Origin: Pseudomonas baetica
GTDB lineage: Bacteria; Pseudomonadota; Gammaproteobacteria; Pseudomonadales; Pseudomonadaceae
Length of the DNA: 64,000 bases
Assembly: GCF_002813455.1 (NCBI RefSeq)
Contig: NZ_PHHE01000001.1
Coordinates: forward strand, 1,364,001-1,428,000
Direction: 5' to 3'
Shown: positions 339 through 14,591 of the stretch, piece after piece
Layout of the letters: each line of letters begins with the position of its first letter
Position numbering within the stretch: position 1 is the stretch's first letter
The notes under the pieces: model-generated
What the model saw: the letters and a program-made list of their open reading frames with translations, nothing else
Database searches by the model: none
Told to the model about the DNA's origin: nothing
Position numbers and translations under genes: made by a program

Positions 339-560
339 GTCGCCGATGCGCGACTTAGTGACGTCGACCTGTACGCCTTTGGCTATGCGTTGAGTAGGAA
401 TCGCCACAATGTACTGTGTTTATATCCAGTATTTTTGGTGTTTGACCCATTGTGTCCATCATGGCTGCGACAAAACCGCCGATGGACAAAAAATCCCCCT
501 CCGTTAGCGTGAAGACCTCTCCTCGGAAAGGAGAGTTCTTAAATCAACGGAGTGAAAACC

Positions 561-1202
561 ATGAATCAACCACAACCACAAGCACAAACCCAACTGCGAC
601 ACGGTCGCGTCGTCTCCCCGGCGAGCCGCGGTGCGGTCGCCATCGAGCAAGGATTGCTCGGTGCCTGGCAGGTCAATGAAATGGAAGGCGGCAAGAACTT
701 CCCGGCACTGGCGGCCGGGCCGTTTCCGGCGCCCTACGAAACCGACTCTGCCAGTGTCGCGCCGCCGGCTGACGGCTACATCCTCAGCGGCGGCAAGACC
801 GATCCGCGTGATTGCGTGAACTTCACTGATGAAGAGCTGAGCAAGAAGCTCGGGCGTCCGTTCTCTTGGCCGCTGCTCAATGTCACCGCGGGCCAGACCC
901 TCGAGGTCAAATGGGAATACACCGCGCCGCACACCACCCGTGGCTATCGCTGGCTGATTACCAAGGATGGCTGGGACCCGAAACAGCGCATCAGCCGTGC
1001 GCAACTGGAAGCGCAACCGTTCTTCGAGGACTTCTACACTCAGGTGCCTTATTACAGCCATTCGGCGGAGCTGAAGGCCAAGGTCAACCATTCGGTGAAA
1101 CTTCCGGCGAACAAGAAGGGGCATCACGTCATCGTGCTGATGTGGATCGTCGCCAACACCGGCAATGCCTTCTATCAGGCCTTCGACGTCGACTTCAAAT
1201 AA
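561..1202 (+). CDS. AA10 lytic polysaccharide monooxygenase (chitin-active type), no classical signal peptide
   Basis: The 213-residue product has the AA10 fold signature: a His followed by GRVVSPASR (His14), a second copper-ligand His in TAPHTTRGYRW (His124), and the C-terminal AFYQAFDVDF strand. LPMOs cleave crystalline chitin oxidatively with copper held by a histidine brace that includes the free N-terminal His. The ATG at 561 is chosen because GGAG lies 8 nt upstream; a GTG at 552 is the alternative. His14 is preceded only by a polar Gln/Pro-rich leader, not a hydrophobic Sec signal, so the protein must be processed and released in another way. The GH18 gene 42 bp downstream is probably cotranscribed and acts on the same polymer. 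Confidence 0.85.
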   Translation: MNQPQPQAQTQLRHGRVVSPASRGAVAIEQGLLGAWQVNEMEGGKNFPALAAGPFPAPYETDSASVAPPADGYILSGGKTDPRDCVNFTDEELSKKLGRPFSWPLLNVTAGQTLEVKWEYTAPHTTRGYRWLITKDGWDPKQRISRAQLEAQPFFEDFYTQVPYYSHSAELKAKVNHSVKLPANKKGHHVIVLMWIVANTGNAFYQAFDVDFK

Positions 1203-1244
1203 CGGAGCAACGCGCCAAATCCACAGGTTCTGAAGGATTAGAAC

Positions 1245-2303
1245 ATGTCAAAAATCGACTTCTCTTTAATGCAAAACCCGGCAACTGATGTGGCGTCGCT
1301 GATGCCGAGCATTGCCGGTAAAAAGATCCTCATGGGCTTCTGGCACAACTGGCCGGCAGGACAGAGTGATGGCTATCGGCAGGGCCGGTTTGCCAGCATC
1401 GCGCTGGAGGATGTGCCCAAGGAATACAACGTGGTCGCCGTGGCCTTCATGAAGGGCAGCGGAGTTCCGACCTTCAAGCCGTTCAACGTTTCGGATGCCG
1501 AGTTCCGCCGTCAGGTCGGCGTGCTCAACAGTCAGGGGCGGGCGGTGCTGATCTCCCTTGGCGGAGCCGATGCGCACATCGAACTGCGCAGCGGGCAGGA
1601 ACAGCCGCTGGCCAACGAAATCATCCGTCTGGTGGAGACCTACGGCTTTGATGGGCTGGACATCGATCTTGAACAGAGCGCGATTGATTTCGCTGCCAAC
1701 AAGACCGTTCTGCCAGCCGCGCTGAAACTGGTCAAGGATCACTACGCCGGCCAAGGCAAGCACTTCATCATCAGCATGGCCCCGGAGTTTCCGTACCTCA
1801 CCAGCAACGGCAAGTACGTCGATTACCTGCAAGCGCTGGAAGGCTACTACGACTTCATCGCCCCACAGTTCTATAACCAGGGTGGCGACGGGGTCTGGGT
1901 GCCGGAGGCCAACAACGGCGCCGGCGCGTGGATCGCGCAGAACAACGATGCGCTGAAAGAGGATTTCCTCTACTACCTGACGGAAAGTCTGGTGACGGGC
2001 ACGCGGGGTTTCACCCGGATTGCCGCCGACAAATTCGTCATCGGTCTGCCGGCCAACGTCGACGCAGCCGCCACCGGTTACGTGATGGACAAGACTGTGG
2101 TGGGCAATGCGCTCAAACGGTTAGCGATCAAGGGGCATCCGATCAAGGGGCTGATGACGTGGTCGGTCAACTGGGACAACGGCGTCAGCAAGGACGGTGT
2201 GCCGTACAACTGGGAGTACAGTCGGCGTTACGGGCCGCTGATTCATGGCGCCCGAACAGTGGGGCAGGAAACGGATGACGCGTTGTCGCGCGTCGCTCGT
2301 TAG
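1245..2303 (+). CDS. GH18 chitinase, catalytic domain only
   Basis: This 352-residue protein carries the GH18 active-site motif DGLDIDLE at residues 136-143, with Glu143 the predicted proton donor, plus the SLGG strand at about 104-107 and a TWSVNWD strand near the end. It would hydrolyse beta-1,4 N-acetylglucosamine links. No signal peptide, fibronectin III or chitin-binding module is present; ChiC-type enzymes of P. aeruginosa are longer and, from memory, also lack a Sec signal. A ribosome site (AAGGA) precedes the ATG. It sits just behind the LPMO gene and before a strong terminator, so the two form a two-gene chitin-degrading unit. Confidence 0.88.
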   Translation: MSKIDFSLMQNPATDVASLMPSIAGKKILMGFWHNWPAGQSDGYRQGRFASIALEDVPKEYNVVAVAFMKGSGVPTFKPFNVSDAEFRRQVGVLNSQGRAVLISLGGADAHIELRSGQEQPLANEIIRLVETYGFDGLDIDLEQSAIDFAANKTVLPAALKLVKDHYAGQGKHFIISMAPEFPYLTSNGKYVDYLQALEGYYDFIAPQFYNQGGDGVWVPEANNGAGAWIAQNNDALKEDFLYYLTESLVTGTRGFTRIAADKFVIGLPANVDAAATGYVMDKTVVGNALKRLAIKGHPIKGLMTWSVNWDNGVSKDGVPYNWEYSRRYGPLIHGARTVGQETDDALSRVAR

Positions 2304-2315
2304 TCGCACATAAAG

Positions 2316-2345
2316 AAGCCCGGTAGCGCTGCCGGGCTTTTTTGC
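2316..2345 (+). terminator. Rho-independent terminator after the LPMO-chitinase pair
   Basis: An 8-bp stem (AAGCCCGG and CCGGGCTT) is followed by a run of T, 12 bp after the chitinase stop. It would also work in part for the convergent MocR gene on the other strand. Confidence 0.9.
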
Positions 2346-2376
2346 GTGGGCCAGGCAAGCAAGGCTCGGATGTGAG

Positions 2377-3879
2377 TCATGGCGGGGCGGGTTGTTTATC
2401 CGATTGGGCGTGCTCGGTACATTGAGTGAATGACTTGATGAGATCCAGCAAGCTGGCAGCTGCCTGGTTGATCTGTGAATCTGTAAGCGCCGCGTAGCCA
2501 ATCAGAACGCCGGGTTTGACCGCGTGACTGCTGGTGAATGCGCAGACCGGTTGCAGGCAAAGGTTGAAAAGGGCAGCCCGTGTGCAGAATTCTCTTTCAT
2601 CAATATCTGCCGGTAACCGGAGCACAAAATGTAATCCGGATTGCTCGCCAGAAATGTGCAGATCAGGGTTTTCTCGCAGCTTTGAGATCAGCAAATCTCG
2701 TCGATGTTGATACGTCTGTCGCGAGATGCGCAAATGTCGTACATATTTTCCGGTGCAGAGAAACTGGTTGAGTGCGAGCTGACCCAGTATGCCTGGCGTT
2801 TGGCCGGTGTCTTCGATGAGGTTGATGACTTTCTTCTGCAAATGTTTGGGAATAACCATGAAGCCCAGACGAAAGTTGCTGAACAGGGTTTTATTGAAGC
2901 TGCCGCAGAAAATCACCCGGTCGTGTGTATCTATTGATTTGATGGCGGGCAAGGGCGCACTGCCATAGTTGTACTCGCTGTCGTAGTCGTCCTCGATGAT
3001 GATCGCATTCGCGGCGGTCGCCCAGGCCAGCAGGGCCTTGCGGCGCTCCATGCTCATGCAGACGCCCAAAGGCGCCTGATGAGAGGGCGTGACATAAATG
3101 GCCTGAACTTGACTGGCTGGTGACAGCGCTTCAACGATCAGACCTGCATCGTCCATTGGAATATCGATGATTGTGTTGCTGGAGCAATTGAATATCCGCC
3201 TTGCCCAGTAATAGCCGGGATCCTCCATGGCGACGACTGCCTCTTTTCCCAATACCCGGCTGATAAGGTCGAGGCAGTGTCTGATGCCATGGGTAATCAC
3301 GATGTCTTGAGGTGAGCAGTCAATCCCCCGATAGATCTGGATATGGTCGCAAATGGACTTGCGCAAGTTCTCGTCACCCCCAAGTGATGAGGCCGATACT
3401 GCGGTGGCGAGGTCTTTGGCGGATGGTGTGCATAACGACTTTAGATCTTTTTCTTCGAGCAATCCCGGATCGGCCAGTCTGGCAATAAACGGAACATACG
3501 GCTGTAAATAAGTGATGGACGCCGGTGAATCAGATAACCGGTGAGTATCAAGTTCGACTTGCAGTTCCTTCGTTCTGGCTGCCGCGATCATGTCGTCCGG
3601 CAATGTCGCACAGACAACCGAGCCGGCACCCTGCTTGCGAATGATGAAACCTTCTTCGCGTAATTGATCGAAAACTGTTTCCAGGGTCCCTCGTGAAACT
3701 CCCCATCTTTGCGCAAGCGTGCGCGTGGAGGGCAGCGCTTCGCCGGATTGGAGTCGACCGGAACTGATCAGGTGTTCAAGGAAACGGCACAAAAGCTGAT
3801 GTTTGGTGGACAGCGAATGTTCAGTCAATTCGAACGGCAAGACTAGGTCGAGGCCAACTGGCCGCTTACCTCTGGTCAT
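2377..3879 (-). CDS. MocR/PdxR-type regulator (GntR HTH plus aminotransferase fold)
   Basis: The product is about 500 residues long. Its N-terminal winged helix (about 20-85, with LPSTRTLAQRWGVSRGTLETV) joins a fold-type I aminotransferase domain with EDPGYYWARR, VTPSHQAPLG, EDDYDSEY and the PLP-lysine motif SFNKT (Lys330). MocR proteins bind PLP and often an amino compound and regulate neighbouring genes. The ATG at 3879 is chosen over a TTG five codons upstream. It is transcribed divergently from the cycloserine-type cluster and separated from it by a gap rich in repeats, so it is the likely pathway regulator. Base composition is less GC-rich than in the flanking genes. Confidence 0.88.
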   Translation of the reverse strand: MTRGKRPVGLDLVLPFELTEHSLSTKHQLLCRFLEHLISSGRLQSGEALPSTRTLAQRWGVSRGTLETVFDQLREEGFIIRKQGAGSVVCATLPDDMIAAARTKELQVELDTHRLSDSPASITYLQPYVPFIARLADPGLLEEKDLKSLCTPSAKDLATAVSASSLGGDENLRKSICDHIQIYRGIDCSPQDIVITHGIRHCLDLISRVLGKEAVVAMEDPGYYWARRIFNCSSNTIIDIPMDDAGLIVEALSPASQVQAIYVTPSHQAPLGVCMSMERRKALLAWATAANAIIIEDDYDSEYNYGSAPLPAIKSIDTHDRVIFCGSFNKTLFSNFRLGFMVIPKHLQKKVINLIEDTGQTPGILGQLALNQFLCTGKYVRHLRISRQTYQHRRDLLISKLRENPDLHISGEQSGLHFVLRLPADIDEREFCTRAALFNLCLQPVCAFTSSHAVKPGVLIGYAALTDSQINQAAASLLDLIKSFTQCTEHAQSDKQPAPP

Positions 3880-3895
3880 AGTGGTACACACCAAA

Positions 3896-3967
3896 ATCCA
3901 TTTAATGGATCTTCATCTTATCGCGGCATACAAATACGCTCAACGCCGCTCAAGCTAACGCGTTGAG
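3896..3967. promoter_or_regulatory. Candidate operators between the MocR gene and the cycloserine-type cluster
   Basis: Three repeats lie in the divergent intergenic region. A perfect 15-bp palindrome, ATCCATTTAATGGAT, lies at 3896-3910. An 8-bp inverted repeat, CTCAACGC with GCGTTGAG, lies at 3939-3946 and 3960-3967. A direct repeat of CGCTCAA occurs at 3938 and 3948, one helical turn apart. Direct repeats spaced by a turn are typical MocR/GntR targets. Function is inferred from position and symmetry only. Confidence 0.5.
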
Positions 3968-4028
3968 GGGTGGCGCGCGAGTCATTGGGGTCAAGAGAAA
4001 CTGGATTGGTATAGGGATATCGACGGCA

Positions 4029-5570
4029 ATGACTGCTTTTGAAAAACTGTCAACACTCAATAAGACTAATCATCGCGAGCCGCAACTAAAGATTGCGATA
4101 GTCGGAGGGGGGGCAACAGCGATTAGTGTAATTGATGCGTTGCAGCGAGACGTAAAGCTGAAAAGTATGGATGTTGCAATTACCCTTTTTGAGCCTGACA
4201 AGAAAATCGGTCCAGGTCGCGCTTATCAAAACGATGGTGATTATGGATTGATTAATCGCCAGGCCCGATTCATGTCCGTGAAAAGTGATGATCCCCGGCA
4301 CTTTGTAGGGTGGGTCACTCATAAATATGGAAGTGCATTGGCGCAACTTGATTTCTTGCCCCGTCACTATTTTGGCGAGTACTTGTCTGATTGTTTTGCC
4401 GAGCAAGTGGCGCTGGCGCGCGACCTGAAGCGTCCGATTCGGGTGATCGGGCAAAAGGTCACCAGCTTGACGATGCACGATGACAAAGCGGTCGTCGGTG
4501 TGGAAAACGGGCCGCAGCAAGTATTTGACCGTGTGATTCTGTGCATCGGTACCGCTGAGCCGGCGGATATCTTCTCGTTGGCCTGTTCCCAGAACTACAT
4601 CGGCAATCCGTATCCGATGTGGACCAAATTTTCCGCGATTGGCGGCGACGATCAGGTGGCGATCATTGGTTCCAGCCTCTCAGCTGTCGATGCGGTCCTG
4701 GCCCTGAATGCCCAGGGACACCGTGGGAAGATCGTCATGCTGTCGCGCAATGCTTTGCTGCCAGCGGTGCGCATGCCGCATCACGACTTCACTTACAAGG
4801 TCATCACCCGCGAACGTATCGAAGAGCTGCGTGATGAAGCAGGGATGATCTCCTGGTCGAAATGGCTTGGCCTGATCACCTTCGAACTGACTGCCCAAGG
4901 GGTGGATCTGGAGAAGCTCAAGGCTGAACTGGCGCCTGGTCAACTGCCTTTCGAGCGGCTGGAGCGCCATCTTCAAGCGTCGACCCGCGGCGAAAAGTGG
5001 CTGTCCATTCTGATTGATATTGCCAACGACTACGTCGAGCTGGCCTGGGATAGCCTGAGTGCGGGCGATCGCAGTTATTACATGGCCAACTATCATTCGA
5101 TTTTCATGAGCCTGTGCAACCCGATGCCTCCGGCGACGGCCAACAAATTGCGCAATATGCTCGAATCCGGGCACCTGGTGATTCGTCCTGGCCTGAAGGG
5201 CGTGGAACTGAGCCCCGGTGGCGGTTTTGTCCTGAATTACCAGGCAGGCGCTTGTCATTCCGACTGGGTGATCAACGCCACGCGATCTGAAACGGGTGGT
5301 GTCGGGCAGACAGGTACCGAGCTGGTGTCCTCGATGGTCAACAATGGCGTCGCTCAGCACCATCCGTTTGGTGGGCTGCACGTGTCATTCGGCTCGCACA
5401 AGGTAATCGACCGCAGTGGCAAAGCCAGCGACGCTATTTATGCCCTGGGCCAACTGGCTGCCGGTAACCACTACTACACCAGTTCACTGGCCATGATCAC
5501 ACGTCAGATCGACCGGGTCCTGCCGCATTTGCTGACTACTGATCAATACCTCAAGGAGCTTTCTGCGTGA
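4029..5570 (+). CDS. FAD/NAD(P)-binding protein (NAD_binding_9-like), first gene of the cluster
   Basis: This is a roughly 513-residue flavoprotein. It has an N-terminal dinucleotide fold IAIVGGGATAISVID (about residues 22-36), a second Rossmann strand VAIIGSSLSAVDAVLAL further in, and a C-terminal ALGQLAAGNHYYTSSLA segment. The overall layout resembles the FAD/NAD(P)-binding proteins of the NAD_binding_9 group, whose members include monooxygenase-like enzymes of secondary metabolism. The ATG at 4029 is preferred although its ribosome site is weak; a TTG at 3963 would add 22 residues. It overlaps the MFS gene by 4 bp, so the two are translationally coupled. It has no counterpart that I remember in the Streptomyces cycloserine cluster. 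The substrate is unknown. Confidence 0.75.
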   Translation: MTAFEKLSTLNKTNHREPQLKIAIVGGGATAISVIDALQRDVKLKSMDVAITLFEPDKKIGPGRAYQNDGDYGLINRQARFMSVKSDDPRHFVGWVTHKYGSALAQLDFLPRHYFGEYLSDCFAEQVALARDLKRPIRVIGQKVTSLTMHDDKAVVGVENGPQQVFDRVILCIGTAEPADIFSLACSQNYIGNPYPMWTKFSAIGGDDQVAIIGSSLSAVDAVLALNAQGHRGKIVMLSRNALLPAVRMPHHDFTYKVITRERIEELRDEAGMISWSKWLGLITFELTAQGVDLEKLKAELAPGQLPFERLERHLQASTRGEKWLSILIDIANDYVELAWDSLSAGDRSYYMANYHSIFMSLCNPMPPATANKLRNMLESGHLVIRPGLKGVELSPGGGFVLNYQAGACHSDWVINATRSETGGVGQTGTELVSSMVNNGVAQHHPFGGLHVSFGSHKVIDRSGKASDAIYALGQLAAGNHYYTSSLAMITRQIDRVLPHLLTTDQYLKELSA

Positions 5571-6778
5571 AGTCCAGCAGCCCCGTCATCCTGTTGCCTG
5601 CAGCTTTATTGGCGGCTGTCATCGTGCCGCAGCTCGGACTCGGCCTGATGACCCCCACCGTGGCAAAACTGGCTGAGGAGTTTCGAGTCCCTCATGAGGC
5701 GATTCAGGAAACGTTCGTTGTTTACATGATCGGGTATGCGTTGTCGGTGGTATTGGCAGGTATTCTTGCCGATCGTATCGGAGCCCGTCGCGTACAGATT
5801 TCGGGGTTGCTGATTTGTGCTGCCGGGTGCCTGCTTGCAGCGCTCTCGGACTCCTTTTACCTGTTTGCGGTTGCGCGTTTCATGCAGGCCCTGGGAGGTT
5901 GTGTGGGAACCGTAACGACCAGACTGATCGTGAAATCGGATTATCCGGAAAGCAAACGACTGCGAATTCTCACCACCCTTGCCTCGGCGATCGCACTCAC
6001 GCCATGTATCGCACCGTTGCTCGGCGGCATGCTGTTACCTTCGATAGGATGGCGCTGGATGATGGGCGGTGTGGGGATCTTCAATCTCGCGGCATTGGTG
6101 CTTTTCTGGCAGGTCGACACCTCTCCGGGGGCATCGGATTCGACGGGACGCAGCATCATTGCTGTTTATGCCGACAACTTCAGAAATGCGGATTATCTGG
6201 CATACGCTGCCGGCATCAGTCTGGTGTGGATGAGTTACTTCGTGTTCCTGTCCTGTTCGACTTATGCGCTGCAGACGGAACTGGGCCTGTCCAGCCTGGG
6301 TTACGGCGCGGTGATCTCCCTGTGCGCCGTCGGTTATGTGATTGGCAGTACGCTGGCGCGAGTCTTGAGCGCCAGGTGGGAGTTGAACGAGATCCTGCTG
6401 CTTGGAAGCAGAGTAGGCATGGCCGGGTGCATTTTGCTGGGCATTCTGTTGTCGATGTTTGGCAGTGGGCTGCCGGCGCTGCTGATTCCAATGGTGTTCA
6501 TTCTGTTGTCGGTCGGGATGGTGATTCCCGCGACTCAGGCCGGGCTATTGAAGAGTGTCAGCCGCGATATCGGTATTTCCTCCGGGCAGTTTTTCTTTTT
6601 CCAGATGGCTGCGGGGGCCGGTTACGGTTGGCTGGTCAGTTCCTTTTCTGAACTGGGCGTTCGTGGCCTGGCACTGTTTATCGCCATTCCGATTGTCGTG
6701 TTATTCGTTTTCCTGAATATGTCGCAGGCACTGTCGAAGTCCCCGGAAAAACAGTTGAAGGCAGTCTCTCGGAGTTGA
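5567..6778 (+). CDS. MFS exporter, Bcr/CflA-like drug efflux type
   Basis: The product has 403 residues and about twelve hydrophobic segments. The loop LADRIGARRVQISG between helices 2 and 3 fits the MFS motif A, and the ALTPCIAPLLGG segment fits the drug/H+ antiporter motif C region. The GTG start overlaps the stop of the flavoprotein gene in the form GTGA. Inside a cycloserine-type cluster the natural role is export of the product and hence self-protection, like the membrane protein DcsJ in Streptomyces. The family call is firm; the cargo is inferred from context. Confidence 0.85.
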   Translation: MKSSSPVILLPAALLAAVIVPQLGLGLMTPTVAKLAEEFRVPHEAIQETFVVYMIGYALSVVLAGILADRIGARRVQISGLLICAAGCLLAALSDSFYLFAVARFMQALGGCVGTVTTRLIVKSDYPESKRLRILTTLASAIALTPCIAPLLGGMLLPSIGWRWMMGGVGIFNLAALVLFWQVDTSPGASDSTGRSIIAVYADNFRNADYLAYAAGISLVWMSYFVFLSCSTYALQTELGLSSLGYGAVISLCAVGYVIGSTLARVLSARWELNEILLLGSRVGMAGCILLGILLSMFGSGLPALLIPMVFILLSVGMVIPATQAGLLKSVSRDIGISSGQFFFFQMAAGAGYGWLVSSFSELGVRGLALFIAIPIVVLFVFLNMSQALSKSPEKQLKAVSRS

Positions 6779-6825
6779 GATTGTTGTTGCTGCGACCCTG
6801 ATAAAAAAAACAAGGAAGTGTAGTC

Positions 6826-8094
6826 GTGCAGTATCTGAAATCGCTGAAGTTGAACAGTGTGTGTTATGACATTCGTGGCCCGGCACTGGAACAGGCCAAA
6901 AAGATGGAGGAGGACGGCCAGCGCATTCTCAAGCTGAACATCGGCAATCCGGCTCCCTTCGGTTTCGAGGCGCCCGAGGAGATACTCCAGGATGTGATTC
7001 GTAATTTGCCCACGGCGCAAGGTTACAGTGACTCCAAAGGCTTGTTCAGCGCACGCAAGGCAGTCATGCAGTACTGTCAGCAGAAGCAGATCGAGGGCGT
7101 CGGCGTCGACGATATCTACCTGGGCAATGGCGTCTCCGAGCTCATTGTGATGTCACTGCAGGCGCTGCTGAACAATCGCGATGAAGTACTGGTGCCTGCA
7201 CCGGATTATCCGTTGTGGACCGCCGCGGTGAGTCTTGCCGGCGGTAATGCGGTGCACTACATGTGCGACGAACAGCAGGACTGGTGGCCGGACCTCGATG
7301 ACATGCGGGCCAAAATCACCCCCAACACCCGAGCTCTGGTCATCATCAACCCCAACAATCCCACCGGTGCGGTGTACCCGCGAGACGTGCTGCTGGGAAT
7401 GCTGGAGATCGCGCGCCAGCACAATCTGGTGGTGTTCTCCGACGAGATCTACGACAAGATTCTCTACGACGAGGCTGTGCACATCAGCACCGCGTCGCTG
7501 GCGCCGGACCTGCTGTGCCTGACCTTCAACGGGTTGTCCAAGTCGTACCGGGTGGCCGGGTTTCGCTCCGGCTGGCTGGTGATTTCCGGGCCCAGACAGC
7601 ATGCCGCCGGCTACATCGAAGGCATCGACATGCTGGCGAACATGCGCCTGTGCGCCAACGTTCCGGCACAACATGCGATCCAGACCGCGCTGGGGGGGTA
7701 CCAGAGTATCAATGACCTGGTCTTGCCTCAGGGGCGCCTGCTCGAACAGCGCAACCGGGTGCATGAACTGCTCAACGCTATTCCTGGCGTCAGTTGCGTC
7801 AAGCCGATGGGCGCGCTGTACGCGTTTCCAAGGCTCGATCCGAAAGTTTGCCCGATCAAGGATGACGAGAAGTTTGTCCTCGAGCTTTTGATGTCGGAAA
7901 GGCTGCTGGTCGTCCAGGGCACCGCGTTCAACTGGCCCGCTCCCGACCATTTTCGCGTGGTCACGTTGCCGGCATTGCCGGACATCGAAGACGCCATGGC
8001 GCGGATTCATCGATTCATCAGCAGCAAGTCGGTCAACAACCTGAGCGTTCGCCGAATGTCGAATAACGCCCGGCACCTGTGGCCGGTCTTCTGA
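6826..8094 (+). CDS. Class I aminotransferase, AlaA-like alanine transaminase paralogue
   Basis: The 422-residue product is a fold-type I PLP enzyme. NPNNPTGAV lies near 175-183, SDEIYDKILYD follows, and the PLP lysine is in NGLSKSYRVAGFRSGW (Lys239). The N-terminus (LKSLKLNSVCYDIRGP) strongly resembles AlaA, the glutamate-pyruvate transaminase. The start is a GTG with AAGGA 9 nt upstream. About 14 extra residues, basic in part, follow the usual C-terminus. Alanine transaminases are inhibited by cycloserine, so a second copy in this cluster could be an insensitive substitute. It could instead supply or degrade an amino acid of the pathway. The gene is 47 bp from the exporter and 134 bp before the dcsA-like gene. 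Confidence 0.85.
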   Translation: MQYLKSLKLNSVCYDIRGPALEQAKKMEEDGQRILKLNIGNPAPFGFEAPEEILQDVIRNLPTAQGYSDSKGLFSARKAVMQYCQQKQIEGVGVDDIYLGNGVSELIVMSLQALLNNRDEVLVPAPDYPLWTAAVSLAGGNAVHYMCDEQQDWWPDLDDMRAKITPNTRALVIINPNNPTGAVYPRDVLLGMLEIARQHNLVVFSDEIYDKILYDEAVHISTASLAPDLLCLTFNGLSKSYRVAGFRSGWLVISGPRQHAAGYIEGIDMLANMRLCANVPAQHAIQTALGGYQSINDLVLPQGRLLEQRNRVHELLNAIPGVSCVKPMGALYAFPRLDPKVCPIKDDEKFVLELLMSERLLVVQGTAFNWPAPDHFRVVTLPALPDIEDAMARIHRFISSKSVNNLSVRRMSNNARHLWPVF

Positions 8095-8228
8095 ATCCAA
8101 ACGCAGATCAAACAAGCAAGTTGTCATGCCAGACGTAAGTTCGTGGCAGGTGTGACAGCGCAAAGTGTCAGACGGCTGGATGCCACGCTCGGCCAACTCT
8201 CTAAGTTGTGCAGCATAAAGGAATGGGT

Positions 8229-9008
8229 ATGCGGAACTTTGATGCGCAGGTTTCTTATCGGGTCATGCTTTCTCAAGATGAGGTTAATCATCATGGAAGC
8301 CGTTGGGAGAAAGAGGCCTTGAGTGAGCTGGAAGAGCGACTTGGGGCAGGTTCCGACTTTCCCTGCATCTTTTCCAAGAACGCATTCAAGAAGTCTTCGA
8401 TCAAGTTTGTATTTGTCGACGCTTTGGATGCCCAGGGGCTGGCGAAACTGGCTGAAGGCTTGAAAGAGTATGTAACGCTTTCCAGAACATGGAGTGGTTC
8501 AATCGAAGACGCTTATCCGCTGATCGTGTTCTTTTCAAAGGACGCGATATCGGCCAGTACTGCGCAGGAGTATCAAGCCGCCGGGTGGGGGGTGCTGCAG
8601 AGCCTGCACTGGCTGGATGAAAGCCCCTGGCCGGACAGCGTCGATGTCGACCCGGAGTCACCGTTCTGGTCGATGTGCTTTGCTGGAATGCAACTGTTTG
8701 TGAATATGAGTTCTCCCGCACACACAGTACGCAAGAGCAGAAACCTGGGCTCCAGATTTGCGCTGGTGATTAACCCGCGTGAACGCTTCGATGTATTTGC
8801 CGGCGATACCGTGGGCGGACGTAATGTTCGCGCCAATATCCGCAAACGCATCCTTAAATATGATTCGTTGCCCCACGCCTTGCAATTGGGCGGTTTTGGA
8901 TCTGGCGCCAAAGAGTGGTGGCAATACGGTTTGATTGAAGAAAATGCAGAGCGCACGGATGTTTGTCCATTCAAACATTCCAGCCATGAAAATAAAGAGG
9001 AAGCCTGA
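8229..9008 (+). CDS. dcsA: DcsA-like YqcI/YcgG-family haem protein, predicted arginine N-hydroxylase
   Basis: This 259-residue protein has the YqcI/YcgG signature. FPCIFSKNAF lies near residue 42, followed by FVNMSSPAHTVRKSRNLG and INPRERFDVFAGD in the middle, and VCPFKH at the end. In Streptomyces lavendulae DcsA belongs to this family and is a haem protein needed to make N-hydroxy-L-arginine. The start at 8229 has AAGGA 6 nt upstream and is preferred to a GTG at 8208. The stop overlaps the ATG of the arginase-like gene by one base (TGATG). The first 350 bp are visibly richer in A and T than the rest of the cluster. Function is inferred from family and from neighbours. Confidence 0.82.
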   Translation: MRNFDAQVSYRVMLSQDEVNHHGSRWEKEALSELEERLGAGSDFPCIFSKNAFKKSSIKFVFVDALDAQGLAKLAEGLKEYVTLSRTWSGSIEDAYPLIVFFSKDAISASTAQEYQAAGWGVLQSLHWLDESPWPDSVDVDPESPFWSMCFAGMQLFVNMSSPAHTVRKSRNLGSRFALVINPRERFDVFAGDTVGGRNVRANIRKRILKYDSLPHALQLGGFGSGAKEWWQYGLIEENAERTDVCPFKHSSHENKEEA

Positions 9009-9847
9009 TGTTCAAGTTGATTGTATCCAACGGCAGAGTGGCAGACCGCACGGCATTTACCCGCGTCGGTGCCTTGAAGGCCGCGTCGGCACTTGAAGCC
9101 AGGTATGGTGTGGTGCCGCTGTATATCGGTGATGGCCGGTGCGAGCCGGCTGCCGATGACTGGACAGTCAGTCTGCCGGCGGGACGTGAGCAGATCGACG
9201 CACTGCATCGCGCCGTGGCCTGTGCGGTAGAGGAGCAGCTACTCACGGTGGTCATCAACGGAACGTGCCCGGCCAGCCTGGGCAGCGTACCTGCGGTGGC
9301 GAGACATTACCCGGACCTTTGCCTGGTGTGGATCGATGCCCATGGTGACTTCAATATCCCGACGACCACGGACACGGGCTACCTGGGCGGGATGGTGGTG
9401 TCTGCATTATGTGGTCTCTGGGACAGCGGCTGTGGCGCCGGCATCCGTGCGCAGAACGTCATTCTGGTCGGCGCGCGCGACATCGACGGGCAAGAGCAGC
9501 GTCTGCTGAGCGCCAATAATGTGCGCACGCTTTCCCCGCAGCAGGCAACGGCTGAAGCCGTGCGCAGCGCTATCGGCCAATCACAGGTCTGGGTGCACAT
9601 CGATTGGGATTCGCTTGAGCCTGGCTACGTGCCCGCCGATTACGCAGTGCCCGGGGGTCTGCTGCCGCAACAGCTCGCGGCGATCCTGGGAGCGATTCCG
9701 CTCGAGCAGATCGTCGGCCTGGAAATCGCCGAGTTCAATGCATCCTGCGATGCGGCGACGGCACAGCGCGCGACCCGCTGCATCATCGATATCGTTGACC
9801 CGATCCTGTCCAAAGCGTGTCTTGAGGCGAGTGTGTGCCATGCATAA
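9008..9847 (+). CDS. dcsB: DcsB-like arginase-fold hydrolase (N-hydroxyarginine to hydroxyurea plus ornithine)
   Basis: The 279-residue ureohydrolase has the metal motifs IDAHGDFN (Asp110, His112, Asp114) and HIDWDSLEP (Asp199, Asp201). The first metal motif, normally GGDHS, reads NGTCPAS, so a Cys (Cys87) replaces one manganese-binding His. This loss fits DcsB, which as I recall also lacks that His, and argues against a housekeeping arginase or agmatinase. DcsB splits N-hydroxyarginine to hydroxyurea, the N-O donor for cycloserine. It is tightly packed: it begins at the dcsA stop and ends inside the start of the epimerase gene, with an 8-bp overlap. Confidence 0.87.
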   Translation: MFKLIVSNGRVADRTAFTRVGALKAASALEARYGVVPLYIGDGRCEPAADDWTVSLPAGREQIDALHRAVACAVEEQLLTVVINGTCPASLGSVPAVARHYPDLCLVWIDAHGDFNIPTTTDTGYLGGMVVSALCGLWDSGCGAGIRAQNVILVGARDIDGQEQRLLSANNVRTLSPQQATAEAVRSAIGQSQVWVHIDWDSLEPGYVPADYAVPGGLLPQQLAAILGAIPLEQIVGLEIAEFNASCDAATAQRATRCIIDIVDPILSKACLEASVCHA

Positions 9848-10697
9848 ACCGGCTGATGCTGCCCGGCTGCGTTTCAGCAAGATGCACGGTGCGGGCAATG
9901 ACATGATCATTCTGGATCTGCGTGATGCGCAGGATCCGTCGCGCGAATTGTGCAAGTACCTGGCTAACCGCCATAAAGGTATCGGCGCCGATATGGTCCT
10001 GGGTGTCAAGGCCGCGCGCAATCCGTCGTCCGTTGCCTCGTTCGATATCTGGACGGCGCAGGGCGAGTCCTCCCGGCAATGCGGCAACGGCGCGCGGTGT
10101 GTCGCCGCCTGGCTGGTTCGGGCAGGCCTGACGGATGCGTCCGAGTTCACCCTCGACAGTCCTTCCGGTACCCACAAGGTCCGGGTCATGGAGGACGGCA
10201 ACTATCAGATCAGCATGGGCGCGCCGAATTTCTCGCCCGCCGCCATCCCGGTGTTCGGCTTCGACGAAGCGCAGTCGGCTTATCAACTCGAACTCGCCGG
10301 GCAACACCTGGAGTGTTCGGCGGTATCGATGGGCAACCCGCACGCGGTGATCGAAGCCGAGCGCAATCAGTATGAGATTCCTGCTGTCGGTAGTGCCCTG
10401 CAAAACTCCGGGTATTTCTCCCCTGACGTCAATGTCGGATTCGTGCAGTTGCAATCCCGGAACAGGATAAAACTCAAGGTCTACGAATTCGGCGCTGGCG
10501 AAACGCTGGCCTGCGGCAGCGGTGCCTGCGCGGCGGTCGCGGTGTTGGCGCGGGCCGGGCGGGTCGACAGTTCGGTCGAGGTCGAACTGCCCGGCGGAAC
10601 CCTTGAAGTCACCTGGGAGCGTGGCTTGTCCGCGATGTACCTCTCTGGCCCTGCTGAATTCGTATTTGATGGAGAACTCGCTCATGCCGTTGTATGA
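9840..10697 (+). CDS. dcsC: DcsC-like DapF-family racemase (O-ureidoserine epimerisation)
   Basis: The product has 285 residues and the two-cysteine acid-base pair of diaminopimelate epimerases: RQCGNGARC (Cys81) and LACGSGACAA (Cys225). SKMHGAGNDMI at the N-terminus is also a family mark. The position between dcsB-like and dcsD-like genes, with overlaps of 8 and 14 bp, points to O-ureido-L-serine to D-isomer conversion rather than lysine biosynthesis. Housekeeping dapF in Pseudomonas normally sits with lysA and xerC. The frame is also open upstream to 9519, but the ATG at 9840 matches the family's N-terminus. The family is certain; the substrate is inferred. Confidence 0.88.
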   Translation: MHKPADAARLRFSKMHGAGNDMIILDLRDAQDPSRELCKYLANRHKGIGADMVLGVKAARNPSSVASFDIWTAQGESSRQCGNGARCVAAWLVRAGLTDASEFTLDSPSGTHKVRVMEDGNYQISMGAPNFSPAAIPVFGFDEAQSAYQLELAGQHLECSAVSMGNPHAVIEAERNQYEIPAVGSALQNSGYFSPDVNVGFVQLQSRNRIKLKVYEFGAGETLACGSGACAAVAVLARAGRVDSSVEVELPGGTLEVTWERGLSAMYLSGPAEFVFDGELAHAVV

Positions 10698-11646
10698 AAG
10701 CATTCTGGACACGATCGGCCGTACGCCAATCGTCAAGCTGCAAAGGCTCGCCCCGGAACACGTCAGCATTTATGTGAAGGTCGAGTCGTTCAACCCCGGT
10801 GGTTCGGTCAAGGACCGACTGGCGCTGGCTGTGGTACTCGACGCCGAAGCCAGGGGCCTCTTGAAGCCTGGCGATACGATCGCCGAATGCACTTCCGGCA
10901 ATGTCGGCATTGCGCTGGCGATGGTTGCCGCGGCGCGTGGCTATAACTTTGTGGCGATCATGTCCGACAGTTACTCGATCGAACGGCGCAAGCTGATTCG
11001 TGCCTATGGCGGCAAGGTTCTGCTGTTTCCTGCTCACCTGGGCAGCAGCGGCGGCAACCAGATTGCCGATGAACTGGCGCACAAGTTTGGCTGGTTCAGA
11101 TCCCGACAATTCGATAACCCGGCCAACCCTTCCTATCACCGTGAAACCACCGCCACCGAAATCCTCGGTGATTTTGCCGGTAAACGCCTGGATTACTTTG
11201 TCACTGGTTTCGGTACCAGCGGCACCCTGACCGGCGTTGGCCAGATGCTGCGAGTCGCGCGACCTGCCGTGCAGATCGTTGCCGCAGAACCGGAAAATGC
11301 CGCGTTGCTGTCGGGCGGCACATGGGGCGTGCACCAGATCCAGGGGCTCGCGCCCAACTTCACGCCGACCATCATGGACAAGACTGTCATCGATAAAGTC
11401 CTGACCGTGAACGAGTACGATGCGCGCGACACTTCGCAGCGTCTGGCCAGGGAGGAGGGGATCTTCGTCGGCATTTCCTCGGGCGCCTCGGTCGCCGCAG
11501 CGTTGAAGGTTGCCGAAACCGCAGCGGCCGGTTCAGTGCTGCTGGCCATGCTGCCGGATACCGGTGAACGTTATCTCTCGACCTTCCTGATGGACGGCAT
11601 CGCCGAAGATTCCGACGATGACTGGTTGCAGTCGCTCAAGCCGTAA
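10684..11646 (+). CDS. dcsD: DcsD-like cysteine-synthase-family enzyme (O-ureidoserine synthase)
   Basis: This 320-residue protein is a fold-type II PLP enzyme. NPGGSVKDR carries the PLP lysine (Lys43), the substrate loop reads TSGNVG (70-75), and the phosphate-binding segment is GFGTSGTLTG. Cysteine synthases normally have TSGNTG here; Val74 replaces a Thr that touches the substrate carboxylate, so altered specificity is likely. DcsD joins hydroxyurea to O-acetyl-L-serine. The ATG lies 14 bp inside the upstream gene, with GGAGA before it. CysK or CysM roles are unlikely given the neighbours, though residual cysteine synthesis is possible. Confidence 0.87.
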   Translation: MPLYESILDTIGRTPIVKLQRLAPEHVSIYVKVESFNPGGSVKDRLALAVVLDAEARGLLKPGDTIAECTSGNVGIALAMVAAARGYNFVAIMSDSYSIERRKLIRAYGGKVLLFPAHLGSSGGNQIADELAHKFGWFRSRQFDNPANPSYHRETTATEILGDFAGKRLDYFVTGFGTSGTLTGVGQMLRVARPAVQIVAAEPENAALLSGGTWGVHQIQGLAPNFTPTIMDKTVIDKVLTVNEYDARDTSQRLAREEGIFVGISSGASVAAALKVAETAAAGSVLLAMLPDTGERYLSTFLMDGIAEDSDDDWLQSLKP

Positions 11647-11694
11647 CAGGCAACCGGTTACTTGGCGAAGCAGGCGCTCTAAGGGATTAGCATC

Positions 11695-12846
11695 ATGGTG
11701 GAAACTCTTCCGGCAGCAGATTACATCGAGTTCGCGCGCCCGTTTCCAATGCATCGTGGAGGTGTACTGGAAGATTTCAGGCTGACGTATGAGACGTTCG
11801 GACAACTGAATGATCGTCGCGACAACATCGTCCTGGTCCTGCCCGGCATGTCCGCCAACAGCCACGTCTGCAGTGTCGTCCGCGATCCTGAGACAGGCTG
11901 GTGGGAGGACTTTGCAGGTTCAGGCAAGCCGATCGATACAGACCGCTGGTATGTGATCTGTTTCAACTACCTGGGTGGTTGCAAGGGCTCGACGGGGCCG
12001 ATGTCCACCGAGCGCGCGAGTGGCAAACCTTACCAGTCGCGCTTTCCCGAACTGAGCATCGAAGACATCGTCGACACGATCGTCATGGCCGTGAAAGCGC
12101 TGGGCATGGAGGAAGTGAACTGCCTGATCGGTGCTTCGATGGGGGGTATGTGCGCGCTGGCCCTGTTGACCCGGCATCCGGGTTTTGTCCGGCATCACAT
12201 CAATTTGTGCGGTGCGGCCAGTTCGCTTCCCGTGTCTACAGCCTTGCGTTCATTGCAGCGGGAAGCCATCCGCAGTGATCCGCTTTGGGCCGGTGGGGAG
12301 TATTCGCCGGATGCGCGTCCGGTCCACGGCATGACGCTGGCCCGCAAGATCGGCCTGTTGAGTTACCGCTCCGGCGTGCAATTGAATCGCCGTTTCAGCC
12401 GCAGCGATCAGTCGGCAGGAAAATCCGCCGGCATGACCCACGACTTTGAAGTCGAGGACTATCTGCAGGCCAATGCCTGGCGATTCGCACGGGATTTCGA
12501 CCCCAACAGTTATCTGCAGTTAAGCCGCGCGATTGATCTCTATGCCTGTCTGAAGCAGCCGCAGGGCGGTTTTCAGACTGCCGGGCTGGAGCAGGTTCTG
12601 GTGGTCGGCGTCGAGAGCGACACGCTGTTTCCTGTCGCGCAACAGCAGTACATCGCTCAAGGGCTTGAGCAGGATGGTGCAGAGGTGACCTTTGTCCGGC
12701 TCGATTGCCCGGACGGGCACGACGCCTTTCTGACCGATCTGCGGGCGTTCGGGCCGCTGCTGGAACATTTCATGAATCGTATTGGTTCCGTCCTCCCAGC
12801 GGGCAGGTCGGAGCGTTGTCTGGAGTTGCACGATGAACGATTTTGA
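11695..12846 (+). CDS. dcsE: DcsE-like L-serine O-acetyltransferase of the MetX family
   Basis: The 383-residue alpha/beta hydrolase-fold acyltransferase has the nucleophile elbow GASMGGM (Ser148), the LGGCKGSTGP loop (about 93-102), Asp in VESDTLFP and His in DGHDAF. These are the homoserine O-acetyltransferase hallmarks. DcsE from the cycloserine pathway has this fold but acetylates L-serine, giving the O-acetylserine used by DcsD. It lies 48 bp after the dcsD-like gene and overlaps the SDR gene by 14 bp. Methionine biosynthesis is a less likely role because metX in pseudomonads usually pairs with metW, which is absent here. Confidence 0.85.
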   Translation: MVETLPAADYIEFARPFPMHRGGVLEDFRLTYETFGQLNDRRDNIVLVLPGMSANSHVCSVVRDPETGWWEDFAGSGKPIDTDRWYVICFNYLGGCKGSTGPMSTERASGKPYQSRFPELSIEDIVDTIVMAVKALGMEEVNCLIGASMGGMCALALLTRHPGFVRHHINLCGAASSLPVSTALRSLQREAIRSDPLWAGGEYSPDARPVHGMTLARKIGLLSYRSGVQLNRRFSRSDQSAGKSAGMTHDFEVEDYLQANAWRFARDFDPNSYLQLSRAIDLYACLKQPQGGFQTAGLEQVLVVGVESDTLFPVAQQQYIAQGLEQDGAEVTFVRLDCPDGHDAFLTDLRAFGPLLEHFMNRIGSVLPAGRSERCLELHDERF

Positions 12847-13576
12847 CAAGGTTGCATTAGTGACCGGCGCCAACCGTGGCATCGGTTTCGAGGTGGCACG
12901 ACAACTGGCCGCCGAGGGGGTGACTGTGGTGCTCAGTGGCAGGAATTACCAGGCTGTCGCTCAGGCGGCCGATGCGCTGATCGCCGTGGGGCTCAAGGTG
13001 TTCCCGTGCCTGCTGGATGTCACGGATGAAGACAGCATCGCCTCGGCCGTCAGACTGATCGAGGCGAAGTTCGGTCGACTGGATATCCTGATCAATAACG
13101 CCGCGATCCGTATCGAGTCCTACGGGCTGAACCCGTCGCAACAGCCACTTCAACAGTGGCGACAGACGTTTGAAACCAATCTGTTCGGCATGGTCGCGGT
13201 GACCCAGCATTGTCTGCCGCTGATTCGCCAATCTGCGGCCGGACGCATCGTCAACGTATCCAGTCTGCTGGCATCGCTCACCACGCATACCAATGTGGAC
13301 TCATACGCCTATTCACCCATGTTCAAGTCCTTGCCGGGCTACAGCGCCAGTAAAAGCGGGGTGAATTCGTGGACGGTTCACCTGGCTTACGAACTTTGCG
13401 ACACGCCCGTCAAGGTCAATGCGGTGCATCCCGGCTACACCAAAACCGGCATGAATGACGGCGCCGGTGATCTCGACGTGCAAGAAGGTGCGCGGACCAG
13501 TGTCGCTCTGGCGCTGATCGGTGCAGATGGCCCCACTGGCACTTACCGCCATCAGGACCGCGTGATTCCCTGGTAA
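12833..13576 (+). CDS. Short-chain dehydrogenase/reductase inside the cycloserine-type operon
   Basis: The product has 247 residues with the SDR marks TGANRGIG (11-18), the LDVTDED segment near 61-67, INNAA (88-92), the catalytic Ser in NVSS (141-144) and YSASK (Tyr170, Lys174). It is a classical SDR that oxidises or reduces a carbonyl or alcohol with NAD(P). It starts inside the upstream gene and ends 48 bp before the ATP-grasp gene, so it is part of the operon. I remember no SDR in the Streptomyces core pathway. It may tailor, activate or detoxify the product; the substrate is unknown. Confidence 0.88.
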   Translation: MNDFDKVALVTGANRGIGFEVARQLAAEGVTVVLSGRNYQAVAQAADALIAVGLKVFPCLLDVTDEDSIASAVRLIEAKFGRLDILINNAAIRIESYGLNPSQQPLQQWRQTFETNLFGMVAVTQHCLPLIRQSAAGRIVNVSSLLASLTTHTNVDSYAYSPMFKSLPGYSASKSGVNSWTVHLAYELCDTPVKVNAVHPGYTKTGMNDGAGDLDVQEGARTSVALALIGADGPTGTYRHQDRVIPW

Positions 13577-13624
13577 GTCGTTGCTGTTTTTCTGCTTCTA
13601 ACTGTTCAGTAGAAAGGATTCTTC

Positions 13625-14539
13625 ATGATTAAGCTTGCACTCGTCACCGATAAGCCGAACTTGCACATTGACTACGACATGCCGCCATTGCTGGAAGCCT
13701 GCAAGCAACTGGCGATCAACGCCGATGTGTGCTTCTGGGATGATCAGTCAATCGATTGGGCAGCCTACGATGCGGTGTTGATCCGCTCACCCTGGGACTG
13801 CATTGAAAACCTCGACGGTTTTTTTGCCTGGTGCGACAAGGTGCATGCACTGACTTGCCTGTTGAACGTGCCGTCCGTGGCCCGGTGGGGATTGAACAAA
13901 CTGTACCTGAAGGACATTGCTGCGCACGGCGTGCCGATTATTCCCAGTGTGTTCCTGGCGCCCGACGATGCCCCCGAGGGTTATCTGGCTGATTTTCTCG
14001 AGGCGAACACCGACAGCCACGAATTTGTCGTCAAACCGACGATCGGCTCGTATTCGCGCGGGGTGAAAAGGTTTGTCCGCGCCGGTTCCGAGGCCGCGCT
14101 GGCGCACATCCGCGCCCTGCAAAAGCGCGGTTCGCACGTGATCATTCAGCCGTACATCACCACCATCGACACCTACGGCGAGACAGACCTGACCTTCTTC
14201 GATAACACGTTCAGCCATTCCATCCGCAAGGGCGCCATGCTCATGGCGGACGGTACGGTGAATGTGCCGACCCCCGAGTTTCGCCAGCCGCGCGAGGCGG
14301 ATGCAGAAGAGCAGGCGGTAGCGCTATCGGCGCTGGTGGCTTCTGCCGAGGTACTCGGGCTTGAGTTGCCGTTGCTCTACGGCCGGGTCGACGTGATCCG
14401 CGACTATGACGGTCGGCCGATGATCATGGAAATGGAGATTTGCGAACCCTCGCTCAACCTGCCATTTCGGGCTGACAGCGCGATGAACCTGATCGAAGGT
14501 GTGCTCAAGCGCATTGACAGGCGCCTGGTCGATCTTTGA
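13625..14539 (+). CDS. dcsG: DcsG-like ATP-grasp ligase (predicted D-cycloserine synthetase)
   Basis: This 304-residue ATP-grasp protein has the central nucleotide-binding strand FVVKPTIGSYSRGV, a GRVDVIRDYDGRPMIMEMEI metal/ATP segment, and the final EPSLNLPFRADSA. In the known pathway DcsG uses ATP to close O-ureido-D-serine into D-cycloserine. The start has AGAAAGGA just upstream. The gene is last in the operon and is followed by a terminator. Generic ATP-grasp enzymes such as RimK-like ligases are the main alternative, but the complete set of upstream Dcs-like enzymes makes the synthetase role much more likely. Confidence 0.85.
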   Translation: MIKLALVTDKPNLHIDYDMPPLLEACKQLAINADVCFWDDQSIDWAAYDAVLIRSPWDCIENLDGFFAWCDKVHALTCLLNVPSVARWGLNKLYLKDIAAHGVPIIPSVFLAPDDAPEGYLADFLEANTDSHEFVVKPTIGSYSRGVKRFVRAGSEAALAHIRALQKRGSHVIIQPYITTIDTYGETDLTFFDNTFSHSIRKGAMLMADGTVNVPTPEFRQPREADAEEQAVALSALVASAEVLGLELPLLYGRVDVIRDYDGRPMIMEMEICEPSLNLPFRADSAMNLIEGVLKRIDRRLVDL

Positions 14540-14562
14540 AACATCCGTGAACGCCAATAAAC

Positions 14563-14591
14563 AAGCCCGACCGCATTGCCGGGCTTTTTTT
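14563..14591 (+). terminator. Terminator closing the cycloserine-type operon
   Basis: AAGCCCG and CGGGCTT form a 7-bp stem followed by T residues, 24 bp after the ATP-grasp stop. It marks the right edge of the operon. Confidence 0.9.

Follow-up and report, generated by a model that had tools for sequence, protein, structure and literature searches.

The stretch of DNA analysed here (hereafter the window) comprises 64,000 nucleotides of Pseudomonas baetica (NCBI RefSeq assembly GCF_002813455.1, contig NZ_PHHE01000001.1, positions 1,364,001 to 1,428,000 of the forward strand) and is part of a 6.9-Mb single-contig genome. It carries a dcsA-B-C-D-E-SDR-G gene cluster (SDR; short-chain dehydrogenase) that, judged from its sequence, very probably makes D-cycloserine, together with genes for a MocR-type regulator, a major facilitator superfamily (MFS) transporter, a flavin N-hydroxylase-like protein and a second AlaA-type alanine aminotransferase, which likely serve to control, export and resist the drug. 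This reading draws on the observed gene content and order, homology, residue retention, distribution, an empty insertion site and purifying selection. D-cycloserine, a second-line drug against tuberculosis with a pathway known from Streptomyces, acts on alanine racemase and D-Ala-D-Ala ligase; DcsABCDEG gave D-cycloserine in E. coli, and resistance is possible via alr overexpression or ald loss (PMC10214352). An antiSMASH 'cycloserine' cluster is noted for Xenorhabdus bovienii in PMC10371910; thus proteobacterial dcs clusters have already been published as annotations. A link between a dcs cluster and Pseudomonas was not found in the titles, abstract openings and selected passages of the papers listed, which for one search were 20 of 88. 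A full dcs set in Pseudomonas provides a new genetic host for the pathway and natural variants of DcsA-G.

The original prediction placed six adjacent genes in the families of DcsA, DcsB, DcsC, DcsD, DcsE and DcsG of Streptomyces lavendulae, in the same letter order, and this was borne out (8208-14539), with the SDR gene as a seventh between dcsE and dcsG. Each Dcs protein was compared with all solved structures, and the best match was set against the best housekeeping relative. For DcsB, DcsC, DcsD, DcsE and DcsG, the best match was a D-cycloserine enzyme with a score well above that of the housekeeping relatives: 6lug for DcsB (297.9 bits versus 73.3 bits for the best ordinary arginase), 7vdy for DcsC (346 bits versus 214.8 bits for DapF), 3x43 for DcsD (566.5 bits versus 301.2 bits for the next-best cysteine synthase), 3vvl for DcsE (378.8 bits versus 219.3 bits for the next homoserine acetyltransferase), and 6jil for DcsG (349.9 bits; ordinary ATP-grasp enzymes were absent from its structure matches). 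Note that we take 3vvl to be the S. lavendulae DcsE; the structure record itself states just homoserine O-acetyltransferase. DcsG also scored 412.9 bits with the NCBIfam model NF058666 (D-cycloserine synthetase; curated cut-off, 360). As for DcsA, the haem-protein family was as predicted, and its sole structure match was AglA (108.8 bits); no S. lavendulae DcsA structure was among the matches. A second gene for a YqcI/YcgG protein is present in the same genome (G000:C1:392212-392850; 178 bits).

The near-invariant columns of each protein were taken from 28 complete dcs loci outside Pseudomonas. The numbers kept in the window were 63/64 for DcsA (28 loci), 79/88 for DcsB (28 loci), 87/102 for DcsC (10 loci), 174/178 for DcsD including Lys43 (28 loci), 65/74 for DcsG (27 loci), and 91/93 for the SDR (26 loci). 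The catalytic Cys81 and Cys225 of DcsC are both kept. DcsB retains a Cys that is presumably a metal-site residue (NGTC here and NNTC in 6lug); His occupies this position in ordinary arginase and in the variant 7eul. The Ser, Tyr and Lys that we take to form the active site of the SDR are also kept; we know of no pathway step for this protein. The SDR had been counted among new accessory genes of the cluster, and this was rejected because 26 of the 28 complete non-Pseudomonas loci have it as well; the flavin adenine dinucleotide (FAD) protein, the MFS transporter and the AlaA copy did stand as additions. Every gene of the unit is under purifying selection, the ratio of nonsynonymous to synonymous substitution rates (dN/dS) between the Pseudomonas copies being 0.018-0.134.

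A profile search of genome contigs with a DcsG alignment gave 32 loci, from Pseudomonas sp. H1h, Roseateles, Rubrivivax, Ramlibacter, Xenorhabdus, Azospirillum, Thalassovita, Tateyamaria, Vibrio ostreicida, Mixta, a Legionella metagenome-assembled genome (MAG) and many actinomycetes. The H1h locus (L005) shares 86% DNA identity with the window over the unit. DcsG was present in 2 of 398 Pseudomonas genomes, the present one included; a protein search added a 61% DcsG named Pseudomonas huanghezhanensis, and a plasmid collection gave no DcsG match at E 1e-30. The loci outside Pseudomonas (L006-L035, including those of Roseateles, Xenorhabdus, Azospirillum, the Legionella MAG, Tateyamaria, Vibrio and actinomycetes) share dcsA, dcsB, dcsD and dcsG with the window and usually dcsE and the SDR gene, and MocR-type and MFS genes are often nearby. 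Most complete loci, in both Actinomycetota and Pseudomonadota, have the order A-B-(C)-D-E-SDR-G. The order is A-D-E-SDR-C-G-B in L014 and L018 and B-A-D-MFS-SDR-G in L030, and the two Xenorhabdus loci L008 and L031 have A-B-D-G only, without dcsE and SDR in the DNA examined. Since the order recurs across the two phyla and every gene is under purifying selection, the dcs arrangement is not a matter of chance. The presence or absence of dcsC is not confined to one clade of the DcsG tree (6 changes). The many clusters without dcsC raise the question of whether some relatives make L-cycloserine or another product, or use another racemase.

The genes from the flavoprotein to dcsG form a plus-strand operon, divergent from the minus-strand MocR gene (Table 1). 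The original prediction that the genes overlap or nearly touch held, with gaps of -14 to 48 bp within dcsA-dcsG; in the operon as a whole, neighbouring genes overlap or have 47-48 bp between them, the one exception being the 113 bp that separate the aminotransferase gene from dcsA. The core was as predicted, and the left end of the unit lies further out, the unit including the MocR, FAD protein, MFS and aminotransferase genes. A hairpin closes the operon as foreseen, and a second one lies at the left end. However, the hairpin scan found 9 terminator-like sites overall versus 11.7 expected, so that the border hairpins alone are little proof. Two other Pseudomonas, in which the MocR-MFS pair occurs without dcs genes, also conserve the block AGTGGTACAC...TTTAATGGATCTTCAT by the MocR start.

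For the empty-site comparison, we used five relatives with the NUDIX gene (87-95%); seven distant NUDIX loci (59-71%) were left out. In L106, L108 and L109, the chitinase-side sequence (to window 2248-2351) runs into window 14556-14563 onward with at most about 60 bp between. Thus, about 2352-14562 of the window is a 12.2-kb insert, with a G+C content of 57.2% versus 59.4% for the window. The two insert border sequences share one hairpin where they overlap at the empty site of L106. In L107, some 1 kb of other DNA separates the two sides, and L110 gave no left match in the flank read. No mobile-element genes were found at the insert borders among the open reading frames (ORFs) looked at; the hairpin pair is the border feature.

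The accessory genes were compared by tblastn across 33 loci including the three Pseudomonas loci. In the flanks read, only the three Pseudomonas loci had the flavoprotein, the AlaA copy and a close relative of the MFS transporter; weak matches elsewhere were MFS (31-40%) in L006 and L035 and aminotransferase in L020, L021, L023 and L032, the latter inside MocR-like genes. Compared with the S. lavendulae cluster, the unit differs in its Pseudomonas host, in the AlaA copy, FzmM-like flavoprotein, Bcr/CflA-like MFS transporter and divergent MocR gene that it adds, and in having no D-Ala-D-Ala ligase gene, whereas the S. lavendulae cluster presumably has one (dcsI). In the genome, the alanine racemase C-terminal domain is matched once and D-Ala-D-Ala ligase once strongly; eight further ligase-domain matches are weaker and probably belong to other ATP-grasp enzymes. 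The Pseudomonas-only accessory genes bear on how a Gram-negative producer survives a drug against alanine racemase and D-Ala-D-Ala ligase.

The flavoprotein is predicted to be an amine N-hydroxylase of the FzmM type. Its predicted fold matches FzmM (8cp5) over 476 residues, with 20% identity. FzmM is described in PMC10404684 as an aspartate N-hydroxylase with a helical domain between two dinucleotide-binding domains; the paper also lists the arginines of the cluster that binds aspartate in the FzmM/CreE enzymes. The dN/dS of the flavoprotein, 0.018 and 0.042, is lower than that of any other member of the unit. It is rare, because at E 1e-60 only its own genome matched among 369 of the same-class sample. 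At 58% or more it was found in only three of the 398 Pseudomonas genomes (the present genome, G254 and G200), and relatives of about 30% were found in 11 others. In G200, the MocR, flavoprotein and MFS genes stand together, the 20 kb read contain no dcs gene, and G200 is not among the DcsG-positive genomes; this points to self-protection rather than synthesis. In G174 (L071), the MocR-MFS pair is kept, and the two genes are separated by a remnant of 16 codons, made up of the beginning and the end of the flavoprotein, which indicates an internal deletion. Four of the 11 contexts with about 30% relatives (G305, G236, G004 and G011) had no match to the dcs genes, MocR or MFS; in G011, a 26% aminotransferase match lies beside the flavoprotein relative. 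Relatives of 27-33% occur on 16 plasmids, and in the four contexts read, MFS was close by in two and not in two, and no dcs genes were annotated. Therefore, the flavoprotein family is not specific to D-cycloserine. Anti-phage defence models gave no match for the flavoprotein or DcsA.

The AlaA copy is 84% identical to the other AlaA of the genome and at most 85% identical to the single copy in the other Pseudomonas searched. Among the 38 genomes searched, the present one has two copies, 35 others have one each, and two have none. The three cluster AlaA proteins group as a single clade within the Pseudomonas AlaA rows (100/100), with the exact branching point open. A match to the second AlaA gene, 824 bases at 74% (window 6928-7751; 7% of the insert), occurs in a phage record without annotation from human faeces (MT835541); it may reflect host contamination or a phage-borne aminotransferase.

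The MocR protein has the GntR winged helix-turn-helix (wHTH) and pyridoxal 5'-phosphate (PLP)-type domains and scored 392.9 bits with the NCBIfam PdxR model (cut-off, 320). The lysine of its SFNKT motif, which we take to be the PLP lysine, is kept. It shares the wHTH and the aminotransferase-like PLP domain with the MocR regulators DdlR and PdxR, and differs from these in being linked to an antibiotic cluster. In Brevibacillus, D-Ala-D-Ala ligase is under the control of DdlR (PMC4944035, PMC6677901); by analogy, this role and the PLP domain make it natural to propose that the MocR protein senses D-alanine or the PLP-reactive drug.

With the core chemistry assigned by close homology, DcsA would hydroxylate L-arginine, and DcsB would split the hydroxylated arginine into hydroxyurea and ornithine; DcsE would make O-acetyl-L-serine, which DcsD would combine with hydroxyurea to give O-ureido-L-serine; DcsC would racemise this compound, and DcsG would close the ring with ATP. 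The MFS pump would export D-cycloserine, the extra AlaA would keep L-alanine, hence D-alanine, at a level that can compete with the drug at Alr and Ddl, and the MocR protein would sense the PLP-reactive drug or D-alanine and switch the unit on. A bolder proposal, which we regard as possible and doubtful, is that a mobile unit for protection against D-cycloserine is made up of MocR, the FzmM-like flavoenzyme and the MFS pump: the drug would trip the PLP-loaded MocR, the flavoenzyme would N-hydroxylate the free amine of the drug so that no aldimine forms with PLP enzymes, the pump would remove the drug, and the second AlaA would flood the cell with alanine. If true, D-cycloserine would here be inactivated enzymatically, through N-oxidation, in a producer and also, with the module on its own, in one Pseudomonas that lacks dcs genes. 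Alanine supply by AlaA and an amine N-hydroxylase would, if so used, be two protection strategies; no precedent for either as D-cycloserine protection turned up, with no literature search aimed at them.

Several points weigh against the reading of the unit as a self-protecting D-cycloserine cluster. The catalytic steps, product, export, sensing and protection are all inferred from genes. DcsA was compared with AglA and the DcsA of other dcs clusters only. DcsE is the most diverged protein, with 112 of 138 near-invariant columns kept (25 loci) and 26 changed, and it has Ala beside the substrate site where most dcs loci have Pro (Ala also in 3 of the 25 others); the difference between the solved pair 3vvl and 3vvm falls in the same stretch, which suggests that the stretch matters for substrate choice. 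dcsC is present in 10 of the 28 complete non-Pseudomonas loci, and none was seen in the DNA examined of the other 18 (L006, L007, L008, L010, L011, L013, L015, L017, L019, L020, L022, L025, L027-L031 and L035); thus, the D form need not be the product of all dcs-type clusters. The MocR-type gene in the flanks read of 12 of these 28 loci and the MFS gene in 8 of 13 loci whose flanking ORFs were sent to Pfam (L006, L007, L010, L012, L015, L026, L030 and L034; in L006, the MocR-type and MFS genes are divergent and adjacent) speak for the reading, but with no background rate to compare for either count. The MFS transporter scored 135.3 bits with TIGR00710, below the cut-off of 200.9, and hence is only Bcr/CflA-like. 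The promoter scan found no sigma-70-like site in 3880-4028, and the sole promoter-like site detected lies outside the divergent promoter region. At 32 positions, the cluster AlaA proteins differ consistently from 25 Pseudomonas rows. The PLP lysine 239 and the other motifs checked are not affected, so there is no sign that the copy is drug-insensitive.

The idea of a chance grouping of paralogues from arginine, cysteine, methionine and lysine metabolism that makes no antibiotic takes its force from the fact that each family alone could be housekeeping, and dcsC, dcsD and dcsE also pass the NCBIfam cut-offs of TIGR00652 (DapF), TIGR01139 (CysK) and PRK00175 (MetX), respectively; the choice was decided by the direct structure comparisons. 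It is hardly credible. The forward best matches of DcsC, DcsD and DcsE were Dcs enzymes and not the housekeeping DapF, CysK and MetX, and in the reverse searches, made for DcsC and DcsE only, the Streptomyces avicenniae DcsE matched the window gene at 374 bits versus 238 bits for the other MetX-like gene of the genome, and its DcsC matched at 325 bits versus 205 bits for the other DapF-like gene. The housekeeping reading of the core was rejected on these matches; moreover, the order is mostly common across phyla, and the whole unit stands as a discrete insert. That the product is an L-configured or another O-ureidoserine-derived compound in place of D-cycloserine is very unlikely, since dcsC is present, resembles the solved O-ureidoserine racemase more than it does any DapF and has both catalytic Cys residues, and DcsG scores above its curated cut-off; the drift of DcsE and the related clusters without dcsC, by which the core chemistry may serve more than one use, speak for it.

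That the product is an N-oxidised D-cycloserine derivative, tailored by the flavoenzyme and perhaps the SDR, is unlikely. The flavoenzyme is a predicted amine N-hydroxylase under the strongest constraint by dN/dS, its gene overlaps the MFS gene in the same operon, and the cluster of the Legionella MAG has an N-oxygenase of a different family (AurF) downstream of dcsG. However, the association with MocR and MFS without dcs in G200 and the persistence of the MocR-MFS pair with the flavoprotein remnant in G174 fit protection better, and no other dcs locus compared has the flavoenzyme. As for the second AlaA, a role as a decoy for the drug or as a drug-tolerant stand-in for the housekeeping AlaA, instead of raising the alanine pool, is a distinct possibility that we do not favour. 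Cycloserine inhibits aminotransferases, and a PLP-enzyme copy inside the cluster, of one clade in all three loci, would suit such a role, whereas the lack of fixed substitutions at the PLP lysine and the other motifs checked argues against it.

Table 1. Features of the dcs unit and its borders in the window.
Feature	Position	Strand	Basis or remark
Terminator-like hairpin, left border of insert	2316..2339	.	Counterpart at right border
MocR/PdxR-type regulator, GntR wHTH and aminotransferase-like PLP domain, 500 aa	2377..3879	-	Pfam PF00392, PF00155
Divergent promoter region	3880..4028	.	Between MocR and flavoprotein genes
Flavoprotein, predicted FzmM-type amine N-hydroxylase, 513 aa	4029..5570	+	
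MFS transporter, Bcr/CflA-like, predicted exporter, 403 aa	5567..6778	+	PF07690
Second AlaA-type alanine aminotransferase, 422 aa	6826..8094	+	Identity to other genomic copy, tree
dcsA, YqcI/YcgG haem protein, predicted L-arginine N-omega-hydroxylase	8208..9008	+	PF08892, 190 bits
dcsB, N-omega-hydroxyarginine amidinohydrolase, predicted hydroxyurea release	9008..9847	+	6lug, Cys kept
dcsC, O-ureidoserine racemase (by homology)	9840..10697	+	7vdy, Cys81 and Cys225, reverse test
dcsD, O-ureido-L-serine synthase (by homology)	10684..11646	+	3x43
dcsE, predicted L-serine O-acetyltransferase	11695..12846	+	3vvl, reverse test
SDR, dcsE/dcsG interval, dcsF position	12833..13576	+	PF00106
dcsG, D-cycloserine synthetase, ATP-grasp cyclo-ligase (by homology)	13625..14539	+	NF058666, 6jil
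Terminator-like hairpin at operon end, right border of insert	14563..14586	.	

To the left of the insert (window 552-2303) lie a GbpA-like gene (NCBIfam GbpA, 92 bits, below the cut-off) and a second gene with the look of a family-18 chitinase by eye and no NCBIfam match. In the Azospirillum locus L014, a class IV aminotransferase gene (11797-12672) directly follows dcsB. In the locus of the Legionella MAG (L034, 10922-16080), dcsG is followed by genes for an FMN_bind_2 protein, a 361-aa protein without assigned family, the AurF-type N-oxygenase and an asparagine synthase, which possibly extend the dcs product.

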